64,000 bases of DNA from Kineosporia sp. NBRC 101731 (GTDB taxonomy: Bacteria > Actinomycetota > Actinomycetes > Actinomycetales > Kineosporiaceae). Shown in pieces: positions 4,181 through 27,369 of this stretch; within the stretch, counting starts at the first letter, position 1; every line of letters starts with the position of its first letter. The position numbers were made by a program, and so were the translations under genes. The DNA lies in the NCBI RefSeq assembly GCF_030269305.1, contig NZ_BSTC01000010.1, positions 248,001 through 312,000 of the forward strand, written 5' to 3'. The notes under the pieces were generated by a model. That model made no database searches. It had not been told where the DNA came from and worked only from the letters and a program-made list of their open reading frames with translations.

Positions 4181-4323
4181 CCGAGCCCGGACCGAGCCCG
4201 GACCGAGCCCGGACCGAGCCCGGACCGAGCCCGGACCGAGCCCGGATCAGGCACGGACCCAGCTCGGATCAGGCACAGACCCAGCTCGGATCAGGCACAG
4301 ACCCAGCCCGGATAGAGCCCGGA
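4181..4323. repeat. 11-bp tandem repeat array between dop and pup
   Basis: Thirteen head-to-tail 11-bp units. Six are identical copies of CCGAGCCCGGA (4181-4246). Three 22-bp dimers follow whose halves are diverged versions (4247-4312), then a final single copy (4313-4323). The 11-bp period places every unit on nearly the same DNA face. It lies in the 352-bp gap between the dop terminator and the pup promoter; no coding function is apparent. Confidence 0.9.
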
Positions 4324-4435
4324 ACCGGCCCCGGCACGCCCGGTTGCGGACTGTTTCTCGTCCCCTACACGGTGTCCATCAGGTAATTCTTCGCAGAGTG
4401 GGCTACGGCACGCGCCTAAATCGCGGGCACATGCT

Positions 4436-8161: not shown

Positions 8162-9130
8162 GTGCTCTCACGCAAAGCCCTGTTGCGCGCCGGCGCGGTT
8201 CTCGTAGCCGCCGCGGCCGTGGTCTCCGGCTGCTCCAGCGCTTCCTCCGGGAGTGCGGGGAAAGCCGCGTCCAGTACGACGACTGACATCGAAGCGATCA
8301 AGGTCACCGGCAAGGTCGGTGACACCCCCAAGGTCGACGTGCCCACGCCGTTCTCGACCGAGAAGACCACCCGCAAGATCCTCACCGCCGGTGACGGTGC
8401 GAAGGTCACGGCGGGCCAGCGTGTCTCCATCGACTACCTGGGCATCAACGGTGCCGACGGCAAGCAGTTCGACAGCAACTACGACGGTGACACCTCGGCG
8501 TTCACGCTGGACGCCGGCCAGGTCATCAAGGGCATGGTCACCGGCCTCGTGGGTGCGCCCATCGGCTCCCGCGTCCTGATCACGATCCCTCCGGCTGACG
8601 GCTACGGCACCCAGGGTGTCTCCGCTGCGGGCATCGGACCGACGGACACGCTGATCTTCGTGGTCGACATCGAAGACGCCGCCGACGTGCTGAAGCGGGC
8701 CACCGGCAAGAAGATCGCGGCCAAGAAGGGCCTGCCCACGGTCAAGCTCGACAAGACCGGCGCCCCGACCATCACCCTGCCCGACGGCAAGGCTTCCGAC
8801 TCCCTCGTCGTGCAGCCCCTCATCGAGGGCACCGGCGCGAAGGTGGCCAAGGGGCAGACCATCACCGTGCAGTACACCGGCGTGGTCTGGCCCGGCGGCA
8901 AGGTCTTCGACTCGTCCTGGGCCAAGGGTTCCCCGGCCAGCTTCGAGATCGGCGCCGGCCGCGTCATCTCCGGCTGGGACAAGGGTCTGGTCGGCAAGAA
9001 GGTCGGCAGCCAGGTCCTGCTCGTCATCCCACCCGACGAGGGCTACGGCGCCGAGGGTCAGTCGGACGCCGGCATCAAGGGCACCGACACCCTGGTCTTC
9101 GTCGTCGACATCCTCGACACCACCGGCTGA
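8162..9130 (+). CDS. Two-domain FKBP-type prolyl isomerase lipoprotein
   Basis: Predicted lipid-anchored peptidyl-prolyl isomerase acting outside the membrane. GTG 8162, with GAAGG 6 nt upstream, gives a 322-residue precursor with a signal peptide ending in the lipobox VVSGC; the Cys would be acylated. Two FKBP domains follow. The second has the complete pocket (FDSS, GWDKGL, EGYGAEG). The first keeps the Asp and Tyr positions but has GMVTGL where FKBPs carry the pocket-floor Trp, so it may be a chaperone or binding domain. The frame is open back to 8063, but those residues precede a normal signal peptide. First of three FKBP genes in a row. Confidence 0.88.
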   Translation: MLSRKALLRAGAVLVAAAAVVSGCSSASSGSAGKAASSTTTDIEAIKVTGKVGDTPKVDVPTPFSTEKTTRKILTAGDGAKVTAGQRVSIDYLGINGADGKQFDSNYDGDTSAFTLDAGQVIKGMVTGLVGAPIGSRVLITIPPADGYGTQGVSAAGIGPTDTLIFVVDIEDAADVLKRATGKKIAAKKGLPTVKLDKTGAPTITLPDGKASDSLVVQPLIEGTGAKVAKGQTITVQYTGVVWPGGKVFDSSWAKGSPASFEIGAGRVISGWDKGLVGKKVGSQVLLVIPPDEGYGAEGQSDAGIKGTDTLVFVVDILDTTG

Positions 9131-9247: not shown

Positions 9248-9628
9248 ATGAGTGCTGAGCTCAAGCGCCCCGAGATCGAGTTCCCCGAGGGAACCCCGCC
9301 CACCACGCTCACGATCACGGACGAGGTCGTCGGTGAGGGTGCGGAGGCCGTGGCCGGCAACACCGTCACCGCGCACTACGTGGGCGTGGCGTTCTCCAGC
9401 GGTGAGGAGTTCGACGCCTCCTGGAACCGGGGCGAGGCGCTGAAGTTCCGCCTCGGCGTCGGTCAGGTCATCGCGGGCTGGGACCAGGGCATCGCCGGCA
9501 TGCGCGTCGGTGGCCGTCGTCGCCTGGTCATCCCGCCGGACCTGGCCTACGGCGCCCGCGGCGCCGGTGGCGCCATCGGCCCGAACGAGACCCTGATCTT
9601 CGTCGTGGACCTCGTCGACGCCCGCTGA
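9248..9628 (+). CDS. FKBP-type peptidyl-prolyl cis-trans isomerase
   Basis: Single-domain cytosolic FKBP of 126 residues that would catalyse proline isomerisation during folding. The pocket is canonical: FDASW with the conserved Asp, GWDQGI with the Trp floor, and LAYGARG with the Tyr. TAAGGAG lies about 8 nt before the ATG. It sits between a two-domain FKBP lipoprotein and a cold-shock/FKBP fusion and is followed by a strong terminator, so it is probably its own transcription unit. Confidence 0.94.
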   Translation: MSAELKRPEIEFPEGTPPTTLTITDEVVGEGAEAVAGNTVTAHYVGVAFSSGEEFDASWNRGEALKFRLGVGQVIAGWDQGIAGMRVGGRRRLVIPPDLAYGARGAGGAIGPNETLIFVVDLVDAR

Positions 9629-9641
9629 TCTCTGAGCGTCC

Positions 9642-9672
9642 AGCGCCCCTCCACCGCAGGTGGAGGGGCGCT
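9642..9672 (+). terminator. Terminator after the small FKBP gene
   Basis: Perfect 14-bp stem (9642-9655 with 9659-9672) with a 3-nt loop, 13 nt after the stop codon, followed by a T-rich stretch. Confidence 0.8.
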
Positions 9673-9706
9673 TCGTCGTTCACGCCAGGTGGAGGAGGGA
9701 TGGACC

Positions 9707-10429
9707 ATGACGATCCGTGGGTGGGTGCGCCGTTGGAACCAGGACGAGGGCTGGGGCGTGATCGAGTCTCCGGACGTCACGGGTGGTGCCGCGTGGACGC
9801 ACTGGAGCGTGGTGCAGATGGCGGGATACCGCGAGTTGACGGTGGGGGAGCATGTGCTGTTCGAGTGGGAACCGTTCGATCAGGATGGTTATGGTGCTCG
9901 TGCGACCCTCGTCCTGCGGCTCGGGGCGCAGGATGCTCCGGTTGCCGAACCGGAGCGCTCTGGGGCGTTCGCCAGTTCGATGCGGCTCGACATCGACAGC
10001 CCGGTCACGGCCGATTCGTCACTGACAGGTCTTCGGCTACCCACCATGACCGTGGCCAACGACGGTTCGCCGCAGATCACGTCGCCGGGCGGTGAACCGC
10101 CAGCGGCTCTGATCGTCTGGCCCCTGATCAGGGGAACCGGAGCGCAGATCCGTGCGCAGCAGGTCATCGCCGTGCACTACACCGGCGTGATCTGGCGGGA
10201 CGGCAAGGTGTTCGACTCCTCGTGGGACGAGCCGGCCCGGGTCGAATTCCAGATCGGTGCCGGTCAGGTGATGCGCGGCTTGGACGAGGGTCTGGTCGGG
10301 CAGCAGGTGGGTAGCCGGATTCTGCTGGTGATTCCGCCGGACCTGGCCTCTGGCGCCAGCGGCGTCGGCGACCTCATCGGCCCACACGAGACCCTGATCT
10401 ACGTCGTCGATCTGCTGGATGCCCGCTGA
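9707..10429 (+). CDS. Cold-shock domain / FKBP fusion protein
   Basis: Unusual 240-residue two-domain protein. Residues about 1-70 look like a cold-shock (OB-fold) domain: WNQDEGWGVIES is the RNP1 position, AWTHW the RNP2 position, followed by VQMAGYRELTVGEHVLFEWE. After a linker of about 50 residues comes an FKBP domain close to the second domain of the lipoprotein upstream, including KVFDSSW. The pocket is altered: GLDEGL replaces the usual Trp by Leu, and LASGASG replaces the conserved Tyr by Ser. Isomerase activity may be weak or lost. ATG 9707 is chosen because GGAGGAGGGA ends 6 nt before it; GTG 9689 is also open. RNA binding coupled to a folding or ligand domain is inference. Confidence 0.8.
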   Translation: MTIRGWVRRWNQDEGWGVIESPDVTGGAAWTHWSVVQMAGYRELTVGEHVLFEWEPFDQDGYGARATLVLRLGAQDAPVAEPERSGAFASSMRLDIDSPVTADSSLTGLRLPTMTVANDGSPQITSPGGEPPAALIVWPLIRGTGAQIRAQQVIAVHYTGVIWRDGKVFDSSWDEPARVEFQIGAGQVMRGLDEGLVGQQVGSRILLVIPPDLASGASGVGDLIGPHETLIYVVDLLDAR

Positions 10430-10454: not shown

Positions 10455-11633
10455 TCAGTGCGCTGGGGCTTGGCGCACCAGGTGTGCGGCGTGACGACCG
10501 GCGGCTGCTGCGGCCAGGAAGGCGGCGGGGTCGGCGGCCAGGTTGCGGCCCATCGTCGAAAGTCCCACCGGACTCTCCCCGAGGGCCTCGAGAAGACCAT
10601 CCACCGGGACCCGGACCTCGCGGTGGCGACCGGTCGGGGCGAAGAGGGGGGCCACCTGGGCCTCGACCAGTGCGGCCAGGTCGGGCAGGGGGATGGGGGC
10701 GTTGTCACCCTGGGCTGATGCGGGGTTGCCATCCACCGAGGCGAGCCCAGACACGTCCTCAAGCAAGGAACCGAAGTCGGGGACGACGACATCGGCTGCC
10801 GCGAGCGCGACCCGGCCGTAGGCGGTCAGGCTGTGGTGGGAGACGCCGCGGTGACGTTCGCGGGCGTCTGCGCCGGAGATGCGCAGGGTGGCGACGCCGC
10901 GCCCATTGAGGACGGCGGCGGCGTTCAGCACCTCGCCGGCCTGGACGCCGGAGAACCCCCAGCGGGTCCCGGTGCCGAGGTTGCCCGGGCCCTGGCTGAC
11001 AACGGCCACATCGACCTGGGCCACGTGCTTGGCCGCGAGCAGGCCGGAGTGCACACTGACGGCCTCCAGATCGCCACCGAACGCCTGGCCCACGGTGATG
11101 CAGGTGTCCAGCCAGTCGGCCTCACGTAGGCCGGCGATCGTGCGGGAGAACCAGGCGGGCAGGGCTCCGCCGTCGGTCATCACGTAGGCGACGCGGGCCT
11201 GGGGCGCGGCCTGACGCAGCCCGGCGAGGATCGCGGGCAGTGAACTGTGCAGGTCGGCGACGATCACGGGCAGGCCCAGCAGGTCGTCGGCGTCGGCCAG
11301 GACGGAATGGAAGGGGGACTCCTGCTCGTCCACCCCGAGCACCATCGCCTGCAGGGGCGTGTAGCGGGCCTTCACCAGGTGGCCGGGACCGGGCTCCGGA
11401 TCGGGTGGGAGGGTGTCGAGGAGCGCGGCGACCAGCGCGTAGCCCCCGGTGCCCAGACCGCGCTCCAGTGCGGTCACGTTGAGCAGTACCCGCTGCCCCT
11501 CGACCGGCCGCCCGACGAGCGACGGGTAGGCCAGGGCGCGGATCGTGCGCCCCTCCACGACGGCCTCGTACTCGACCGCCCCGTCCCATTCGCGTCGTTC
11601 GGACGTGACTCGACCCTCTCGCCACACAATCAC
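10455..11633 (-). CDS. DUF3866 family protein
   Basis: A 392-residue soluble protein matching the DUF3866 family, which is often found beside pafB/pafC in actinobacteria; its activity is unknown. Visible features include an N-terminal beta-rich part, HSSLPAILAGL and VTDGGALPAWFSRT-like segments in the middle, and GPGNLGTGTRWGFSG near 235-250, a Gly-rich turn of possible ligand binding. It is divergent from pafB across a 48-bp gap, so the two may share control. It ends 25 nt from the convergent cold-shock/FKBP gene. Confidence 0.82.
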   Translation of the reverse strand: MIVWREGRVTSERREWDGAVEYEAVVEGRTIRALAYPSLVGRPVEGQRVLLNVTALERGLGTGGYALVAALLDTLPPDPEPGPGHLVKARYTPLQAMVLGVDEQESPFHSVLADADDLLGLPVIVADLHSSLPAILAGLRQAAPQARVAYVMTDGGALPAWFSRTIAGLREADWLDTCITVGQAFGGDLEAVSVHSGLLAAKHVAQVDVAVVSQGPGNLGTGTRWGFSGVQAGEVLNAAAVLNGRGVATLRISGADARERHRGVSHHSLTAYGRVALAAADVVVPDFGSLLEDVSGLASVDGNPASAQGDNAPIPLPDLAALVEAQVAPLFAPTGRHREVRVPVDGLLEALGESPVGLSTMGRNLAADPAAFLAAAAAGRHAAHLVRQAPAH

Positions 11634-25080: not shown

Positions 25081-25229
25081 CAGAAGACTCCGCTCAGATC
25101 GGCGAATCCGGATCAGCGCGCCACTGCCCTGATCTCAAGGGTCGGTCGACAACCAGCCTATCCGCGAAAGACCACCCACCGTCGCACCGGAAATTGATCT
25201 TCAGTACCCCGCCCGGTCGGGTGATCGCC

Positions 25230-27369
25230 ATGTCAGGACGGTTCGTGGGGGAAACAGTAACGCCGCCACATCTGTCCTTATATGTAAGGAATCGCACGTC
25301 TTCGTGGAGTTCCTGGCACGTCCGGCTCCCCGCCGTCGCACTCGCCGTCTGCCTGACCCCTGTCGGTCTGCTGGCGCCTCTGGCACCGACCACCGCTCAC
25401 GCCGCCGAGATCTCGGCCTTCGACGCGGTGAACCAGTTCATCGGCACCGAGCTGGACACGTCGCAGAACAAGAGCAACGACGCCTACGGCAACATCTACC
25501 CGGGCGCGAGCGTGCCGTTCGGCATGGTGCAGCCCAGCCCGACGACCTGGGGGGAGAGCAACCCCAACGTCAGCCAGAAGGGCGGGTACGAGTACACCGC
25601 CTCGCTGATCCGGGGTTTCGGTCTCACCCGGTACGAGGGGACGGGGTGCACGGGCCGGTTCGGTGGGTACGAGTTCCCGACGATCCCGTACGCGGGCGAG
25701 CTGACCGGGGGCGTGCTACCGAAGAGCCCCGCGAGCAACATCAAGGACTACTACCTGCCGTTCCGCCACGACAACGAGACCTCCCAGCCCGGCTACTACG
25801 GCGTGAAGCTCGACAACGGGGTGGAGGCGGAGATGACCTCCTCCACCCGCACCGCCGTGAGTCGCTACGACTTCCCCAAGAGCGGTAGCTCGTCCCTCAT
25901 TCTCGACGTCTCCGGCCCGAACAACCGCACCTTCGGCAGTGAGGTGACGATCGACCCGGCGACCCGCACGGTCTCGGGCTGGATGTACGGCGTCGACGTC
26001 TGCGACAACGGCAACTACTACAAGGCGTACTTCTCCACCACGTACGACCACGACTTCGCCGCGTACGGCACCTGGACCGACGACACGATGACGGCCGGTT
26101 CCACGCACGCGGTGAAGAGTAGTGAGGACGTGGGGGTCGACTACCGGCACGACACCGGCGCCTGGCTGACCTTTGCGCAGGGCGCCAAGGTCGTCGCCAC
26201 GACCGGGTTCAGTTACGTGAGTGTCGAGAACGCGGCTCTCAACAGTGAGACCGAGGTCGGGGACGACGGTTTCAACGACGTGCGGGCAGACGCGAAGAAG
26301 GCGTGGAAGGAGGCGCTCGGGACGGTGGACGCCGAGGGCGGCCGGGGCCTACACCCAGACCGGTAACTACCTCTCCAACCAGCCGGCTTTCGGAACACCC
26401 TGGGTCTACAACTGGCTGCAGGCACCCTCGAAGACCACGGATGTCCTCTACCGGGCTGTCGAGCAGATGTACGACACCACGCCGAGCGGACTGCCCGGCA
26501 ATGACGACCAGGGTGCGCTGAGTGCCTGGTACGTCTGGGCGAACATCGGCCTGTACCCGGCCATCTACGGCACCGGTGACCTGGTGGTCAGCGCGCCGAT
26601 GTTCGACCGGATCGTCATCGACCCGGTCGGTGTCTCCCGGAAGATCAAGATCAACGCCTCCGGCGTGGCCCGGGGGGCCACGTACGTCAACGGCCTGGAG
26701 GTCAACGGCAAGGCCCGGTCGAAGTCCTGGCTGGACAGCTCTTTCGCCCAGGCCGGGGGAACCCTCGACTTCACCATGACGGCGACCGCGGGTACCTGGG
26801 GCACTGGTGCCTCCGATGTTCCCCCCTCCTACACCGAGGGATCGAACGCCCCCAACAGCGTGGGCACCACCCCGGACGGCCAGGGCAACCTCGGCTCGAT
26901 CGACCTCAGCGACTGGTCCCTGTCGCGTGACTCGCTGGCCGCGGCGGGTGTCACGCCGGGGTCCGCGGTGGGCGACTTCACCTGGCCCGCCTCGGGACCG
27001 GGGGAACCGGACAACTGGATTCCGCACGGCCAGAAGATCGCCGTGACCGGACAGGGCGCGCTGTCGTTCCTCGGCCTGTCCACCAACGGCCCGGCGAAGG
27101 GCACGGCCGTGGTGACCTACACGGACGGCACGACCCAGGACGTCCCGTTCTCCCTCAGCGACTGGGCCGCGAGCCCGGCGGCGGGGGAGCGAGCGGCGGT
27201 CACCCTGACCGGCCGCAGCAACGTCAACGGCACGGCGGGCACCGGCACGTTCCGCGTCTTCGCCTCCGCGCCGGTCGCTCTCGATCCCGCCCGGACGGTC
27301 GCGTCGGTGACGCTGCCGGAGAGCACCGACAAGGGCATCATGCACATCTTCGATGTCGCGGTGAGCTGA
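25230..27369 (+). pseudogene. GH92 alpha-1,2-mannosidase remnant with internal deletion and frameshift
   Basis: The 5' part (25230-26366) encodes a signal peptide (APLAPTTAHAAE cleavage region) and the N-terminal beta domain of a secreted GH92 mannosidase. It ends in AWKEALGTVDAEGG, then runs into a stop. The 3' part, in the +1 frame from about 26347, resumes at YTQTGNYLSNQPAFGTPWVYNW and continues through GLPGNDDQGALSAWYVW to the family's C-terminal strands and an extra beta domain. In intact enzymes several hundred residues of the catalytic barrel lie between those points. The gene has thus lost most of its (alpha/alpha)6 domain and is out of frame. A strong terminator follows. Confidence 0.82.

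Follow-up and report, generated by a model that had tools for sequence, protein, structure and literature searches.

The window, by which we mean the whole stretch of 64,000 nucleotides that was analysed, comes from Kineosporia sp. NBRC 101731 and contains a Pup-proteasome block. The flanking Pup-system genes are presumably pafA and pafB/C-like, names that we took from reading the translations. Inside this block, on the forward strand, lies a gene that joins a cold-shock domain (CSD) to an FKBP domain (9707..10429). Its reading frame is open, begins with ATG and encodes 240 amino acids; a likely ribosome-binding site, GGAGGAGGG, can be seen by eye at 9691..9699 (+). Two further FKBP genes stand immediately upstream on the same strand. 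The first encodes a lipoprotein-like protein with two FKBP domains (8162..9130, with start codon and lipobox chosen by eye), the second a small FKBP12-like protein of 126 amino acids (9248..9628), and Pfam finds a CSD in neither. The downstream neighbour is a DUF3866 gene on the reverse strand (10455..11633, Pfam PF12982). Also inside the block, at 4181-4331, there is a tandem array of 13 copies with an 11-base unit and a 44-base higher period.

A 13-bp GC-rich hairpin lies 3' of the small FKBP gene (9643..9671, +) and might act as a terminator ahead of the fusion gene. By eye, each of the six genomes of the genus has a similar hairpin here, and the predicted fold of 9626-9712 has an energy of -47 kcal/mol (z -3.6). 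A scan for consensus terminators found none at the hairpin. We also found no sigma-70-like promoter for the fusion gene, although this is a weak test in such DNA.

The two-domain architecture that the preliminary description of this DNA had proposed is borne out by the HMM search of the 240-residue product, in which both domains pass their Pfam cut-offs, the CSD narrowly. The CSD (PF00313) matches at residues 4-60 with E 2.5e-6 and 27.7 bits against a cut-off of 27 (29.6 bits when residues 1-78 are scored alone), and FKBP_C (PF00254) matches at residues 148-237 with E 8.3e-23 and 81 bits against a cut-off of 21.1. Pfam shows only these two domains; neither the ribosome-binding N domain nor the C chaperone domain of trigger factor was found in the product, for which the NCBIfam profile tig gives 11 bits against a cut-off of 180.2. 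The motifs are present as quoted there: a cold-shock layout with aromatic residues at RNP1 (EGWGVI) and RNP2 (AWTHW), and two changed pocket residues in the FKBP domain (GLDEGL, LASGASG). The window's genome (8.26 Mb) has five FKBP_C places, four of which, the fusion included, are in the fusion's cluster. Of its six CSD places the fusion's scores lowest.

The CSD covers residues 1-72 (9707..9922, +), as judged by Pfam, alignment, and single-sequence AlphaFold with Foldseek, and is followed by a linker of residues 73-118 (9923..10060, +). When the CSD is modelled alone from its single sequence, AlphaFold predicts five strands with a mean pLDDT of 71.3 (55-67 in the other four models). Foldseek places 2k5n first, the only chain at E<=0.001, and CspA (1mjc) second with E 3.8e-3 and TM 0.62/0.67, with other OB folds among the rest. 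The full-length model was built from a 19-row alignment without CSD relatives. Its CSD region again has five strands, at low confidence (block pLDDT 36-50), its FKBP blocks (residues 111-240) have pLDDT values of 65-93, reaching at least 76 in 11 of the 13, and the best 50 Foldseek matches listed are FKBPs, with FKBP12-type chains among them. Hence, structure prediction, a check suggested in the preliminary description, gives an N-terminal five-strand OB barrel with modest confidence.

The search for the same fusion in related genomes, proposed in the same place, gave a second case at the same locus. In a genome of the same genus (G002), the fusion stands in one frame at the same place and between the same flanks, with 76% amino acid identity over residues 1-239 (E 8.5e-113); an in-frame stop precedes the matching ATG by four codons. 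One could have argued that a sequencing, assembly or frameshift artefact joined two genes, as the preliminary description had considered, and nothing more than the oddity of the architecture speaks for this. The fusion in G002 is in frame as well, has diverged to 76% identity, and neither gene contains a stop. We therefore take the fusion gene to be real and the artefact to be ruled out, its probability being close to nil.

The other four of the six genomes of the genus (G001, G003, G004 and G005) lack the fusion. In these, the hairpin comes next after the small FKBP gene, and then, on the other strand, a gene that by sequence likeness is DUF3866. Hence, the fusion occupies a site that is empty in these four relatives. 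For domain 1 of the lipoprotein-like protein, the tree of the six congeners joins the window and G002 as sisters (support 100/96), so that one origin would be the simplest reading. The gap between the fusion gene and DUF3866 is only about 25 bases long in the window, whereas in G002 it holds a long CTCACCTCT-type repeat (locus L013, ~1095-1260). Of the two FKBP domains of the lipoprotein-like protein, domain 1 seems to vary more from genus to genus than domain 2 does.

Beyond this pair we found no further case. A whole-protein search of 58 relatives gave two fusions, those of the window and G002, and against 394 genomes of the class only the window's fusion is among the matches listed. With the CSD part, the same two fusions and no more were found in 13 genomes of the family. 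In 396 genomes of the order, the CSD part has 19 places besides the two fusions at E<=1e-10 among the matches listed; the loci of 15 of these were read, and there was no locus for the other four. The class and order sets are samples, many genomes had only 7 or 12 of their candidates scored, and these scans could overlook a CSD-FKBP fusion that has diverged a great deal. An FKBP profile run over the open reading frames of 48 CSD loci (18 from the order scan and 30 from the class scan, some nearer canonical Csp than the subfamily discussed below) matched only in L181, the window's own, and in none of the other 47 within ~1.5 kb. None of 38 loci from named genome contigs has a match that starts before residue 40. 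Among the 25 of 63 plasmid records listed, H1 and H2, which reach furthest to the N-terminus, are by eye FKBP proteins without a CSD. Phages gave no match to the CSD part, and no match was found in viral contigs. The rarity that had been claimed for this architecture is supported, and we found no CSD-FKBP protein described in the open-access literature searched, which omits most subscription papers.

Where the CSD comes from can be seen in the order scan, in which the first 104 residues found free-standing relatives. We aligned 12 of them, picked from 20 loci read, with the two fusions. All 14 rows share W10, G17, V18, G26, G27, W30, H32, S34, G47, E55, Q59, D60, G61 and R65, and 12 of them have a Pfam CSD match at E up to 1. 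The free-standing rows are 33-50% identical to the window's CSD plus tail. The loop of this actinobacterial subfamily is TPGG, and VTGG in both fusions; we refer to the subfamily as TPGG-type, a grouping made in the present analysis for which we found no published name in the literature. A profile of the subfamily at E<=1e-10 finds 40 places, 30 of them with loci, in 37 of the 394 class genomes, the window's included. In every non-fusion locus that was read the protein is free-standing and, for the 47 loci mentioned above, differs from the fusion in having no FKBP nearby. A tail of the kind SGAYSSxLxL ends 10 of the 12 free-standing rows, and it aligns with residues 85-99 of the fusion, SGAFASSMRLDIDSP (9959-10003, +). 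Much of what looks like a linker is hence the tail of the CSD family, which argues that a whole CSD protein was captured.

Within the genus we saw no free-standing copy of the TPGG-type CSD: all other matches have E 6.5e-8 or weaker, and the best of them, in G003, looks on reading like a canonical Csp. One could read a foreign origin into the GC3 of the CSD part (0.79 versus 0.86-0.91 in the neighbours), but GC3 of the whole G002 fusion is 0.89. Two observations on the subfamily may be added. In another genus of the family, a relative of the TPGG-type CSD has an internal stop and looks decayed (L106, in G009 C111, a locus read separately from the 48). In four genomes from one family of the order (L137, L139, L140, L143), 62-70 amino acids follow the CSD and tail, with conserved THWPPxxxPVLGTVTVTVF...GRNEVRIESAGTLDEQLVD...ELQRVR, a second small domain.

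The FKBP part (residues 119-240, 10061..10426, +) appears to be a mosaic drawn from both upstream FKBP neighbours, its likely sources. Up to about residue 206-213 it mostly resembles domain 2 of the lipoprotein-like protein, and from about residue 213 (10343), that is for the last ~28 residues, the 3' end of the small FKBP gene. In sliding windows of 20 columns, nucleotide identity in the middle peaks at 84% to lipoprotein domain 2 versus 60% to the small FKBP, and at the end it is 81% to the small FKBP versus 59% to lipoprotein domain 2. The fusion of G002 makes the same switch. A max-chi-square permutation test (5000 permutations) points the same way: informative residues are lipoprotein-like or small-FKBP-like in the proportion 23/3 on the left and 2/8 on the right in the window (p 0.001), and 21/6 and 0/8 in G002 (p 0.0002), with the break at the same column, residue 213, in both.

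Split trees are less even in what they say of the two sides. On the right, the fusions group with the small FKBPs against lipoprotein domain 2 (100/99.7, from only 37 columns), though outside the small-FKBP clade (92/89). A single parent for the FKBP part is ruled out at this end by that tree, few as its columns are. On the left, the best tree places the fusion with lipoprotein domain 2; the alternative with the small FKBPs is only 0.70 log-units worse (p-AU 0.137). In the tree of the whole domain the fusion goes with the small FKBPs (98/84), a placement that is difficult to interpret when the sequence is a mosaic. Since neither parent is clearly preferred over the first 20 to 28 columns (54 vs 57% and 52 vs 48% nucleotide identity, lipoprotein domain 2 not being favoured), the case for the left origin depends on the middle stretch and the permutation test.

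Compared with the bacterial cold-shock proteins CspA, CspB and CspD, the fusion is alike in its CSD profile match at residues 4-60, in the CspA-type chains found by structural search, and in the His and several RNP aromatics. It differs in Trp for Phe at RNP1 and RNP2, in Val for Phe20, in the TPGG-type loop, the QDGY motif and the C-terminal tail, which are typical of the actinobacterial subfamily, and in carrying an FKBP domain. We take the contact positions of CspA to be W11, F12, F18, F20, F31, H33, F34 and Y42, with the register checked against CspA chains. At these eight positions the window has R, W, W, V, W, H, W and Y, and G002 has S, W, R, V, W, H, W and Y. Six are thus aromatic or His in the window (W10, W16, W30, H32, W33, Y41) and five in G002, where the RNP1 Trp has become Arg (EGRGVI). 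Both fusions retain W30, H32 and W33 and have lost the equivalents of CspA Trp11 and Phe20. That this part is an RNA-binding module, as the preliminary description put it, is inferred: the window keeps most of the aromatics, but G002 has EGRGVI.

One could also argue that the CSD no longer binds nucleic acids and serves as an interaction or solubility domain for a cytoplasmic FKBP, perhaps working with the Pup-proteasome system. The lost aromatics, in G002 at RNP1 and in both fusions at Trp11 and Phe20, would fit such an adaptor, and so would its location: two FKBP genes in the Pup-proteasome neighbourhood of several actinobacteria were described in 2008, and an accessory role in pupylation was proposed for FKBPs, in PMC2588565. 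The window's two likely source genes form such a pair: one encodes the lipoprotein-like protein with its two FKBP domains, the other an FKBP of one domain, and neither has a CSD by Pfam. However, the fusion owes its place in the block to these two FKBP neighbours, which its FKBP part resembles, and three of the contact residues (W30, H32, W33) persist in both. We consider the adaptor improbable. The position in the Pup-proteasome block, which the preliminary description had pointed out, is correct, but with two FKBP genes already known from such blocks it does not count as independent evidence.

The FKBP core is kept in the window at Y158, F169, D170 and V188, which include the equivalents of FKBP12 Tyr26, Asp37 and Val55, and the Phe99 position is Tyr in the window and Phe in G002. 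Two other pocket positions have changed. At the Trp59 position of FKBP12 the alignment gives Leu192 in the window (codon 10280..10282, +) and Ser in G002; hence, it is non-aromatic in both fusions, and it is Met in domain 1 of the neighbouring lipoprotein-like protein. At the Tyr82 position the alignments give Ser215 in the window (codon 10349..10351, +) and Tyr in G002. The literature treats the two positions differently. Leu, Ile or Met stands at the Trp59 position in 14 of 22 human FKBP domains (PMC3949516), and, going by the title of entry 2dg9, the structure of FKBP12 W59L was solved with rapamycin. Tyr82 is described as evolutionarily invariant in PMC3940039. Most replacements of it except aromatics, Arg and Pro are said to cut the activity of FKBP12 substantially, and Y63A at the equivalent position of SlyD leaves 21% of activity (both PMC5034536).

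Trp to Leu therefore says little and is not diagnostic, since it is common in FKBPs, since the W59L structure was solved with a bound ligand, and since the neighbour has Met. Of the two changes, Tyr82 to Ser carries more weight. The window's protein is probably a poor isomerase, and the protein of G002 may be a better one. Because G002 keeps Tyr at this position, inactivity is no shared property of the fusions, and the earlier suggestion of a possibly inactive isomerase is not supported as it was put.

Selection was read from counts of codon-position differences between the window and G002, because two estimates of dN/dS disagree widely (0.156/0.432 by NG86, 0.131/1.052 by YN00). Over the 238 codons of the whole fusion, positions 1/2/3 differ 36/34/66 times (p 8e-4 for equality). 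The FKBP part gives 17/20/34 (p 0.03), the linker 10/6/18 (p 0.04), and the CSD alone 9/8/14, which is not significant (p 0.37). The third-position excess over the whole gene and the FKBP part therefore argues for some purifying selection. This constraint is weak and much below that of the neighbours: the small FKBP gene has 0/0/13 differences over 126 codons, and DUF3866 15/15/67 over 305 codons, the part covered by the G002 locus. First and second positions differ in 70 of 476 cases in the fusion versus 30 of 610 in DUF3866, about three times as often. With 76% amino acid identity the fusion is the fastest-changing of the four genes compared (small FKBP 100%, lipoprotein 96%, DUF3866 91% over the 305 codons).

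Such figures fit a young chimera without a settled function, an in-frame recombinant beside its FKBP parents that may be translated and is drifting. A drifting chimera predicts both the non-significant CSD test and the loss of different key residues in the two genomes, the RNP1 Trp in G002 and Tyr82 in the window; the presence of the fusion in only two of six genomes of the genus fits as well. Set against this are a reading frame that has stayed intact over 19% nucleotide divergence with a single in-frame indel of 6 bases, the third-position excess over the whole gene, and GC3 values of 0.81-0.89. We regard the drifting chimera as nearly as likely as the reading that we prefer.

That preferred reading, to which we give a probability of roughly 0.42, is a lineage-specific cytoplasmic protein in which a weak FKBP module is anchored on RNA through the CSD. 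The fusion would have been born once, in the ancestor of the window and G002, by recombination just 3' of the small FKBP gene, when a complete and normally free-standing CSD protein with its tail was captured upstream of the mosaic FKBP domain. By eye no signal peptide is seen in the fusion protein, so that the product, unlike its lipoprotein-like parent, should stay in the cytoplasm, as a soluble protein of ~26 kDa. There the CSD would hold single-stranded RNA (or DNA), the FKBP domain would bind proline-containing segments of nearby proteins, and the whole may work in the cell as a chaperone that is tethered to RNA and isomerises weakly, the isomerase step in the window being probably impaired by Tyr82 to Ser. 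In favour of this RNA tether we counted the domain matches, the recurrence in G002, the CSD tail, the mosaic FKBP part, the codon bias, the kept aromatics and the FKBP core. Against it we counted the weak constraint, the lost aromatics, the changes at Trp59 and Tyr82, the absence from four of six genomes, the upstream hairpin and the lack of a promoter in our search.

Nucleic-acid binding joined to a prolyl isomerase module is known mainly from eukaryotes. If functional, the fusion would join the two in a bacterium. Its plan loosely resembles that of human FKBP25 (FKBP3), in which an N-terminal domain of nucleic-acid-binding type precedes a C-terminal FKBP domain and which binds DNA and dsRNA, according to PMC7457334. 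This likeness is one of plan, not of descent: the N-terminal domain of FKBP25 is a basic tilted helix bundle, whereas the fusion begins with a CSD that is predicted to be all-beta. A bolder version of the RNA tether, in which capture of a CSD turned an extracytoplasmic FKBP of lipoprotein type into a cytoplasmic RNA- or ribosome-bound chaperone, a prokaryotic counterpart of FKBP25 of independent origin and recent birth in one genus, seems to us unlikely, though less so than the adaptor. The making of the fusion can also be followed, with the likely FKBP sources adjoining, the free-standing CSD family identifiable and the site empty in congeners. If the fusion is not functional, it is a clear example of tandem FKBP genes recombining into chimeras.

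Elsewhere in the window, at 25194-27369, two open reading frames overlap in different frames and look like the N- and C-terminal parts of a single secreted protein (as read by eye, presumably a GH92-like mannosidase), which suggests an internal deletion or a frameshift.
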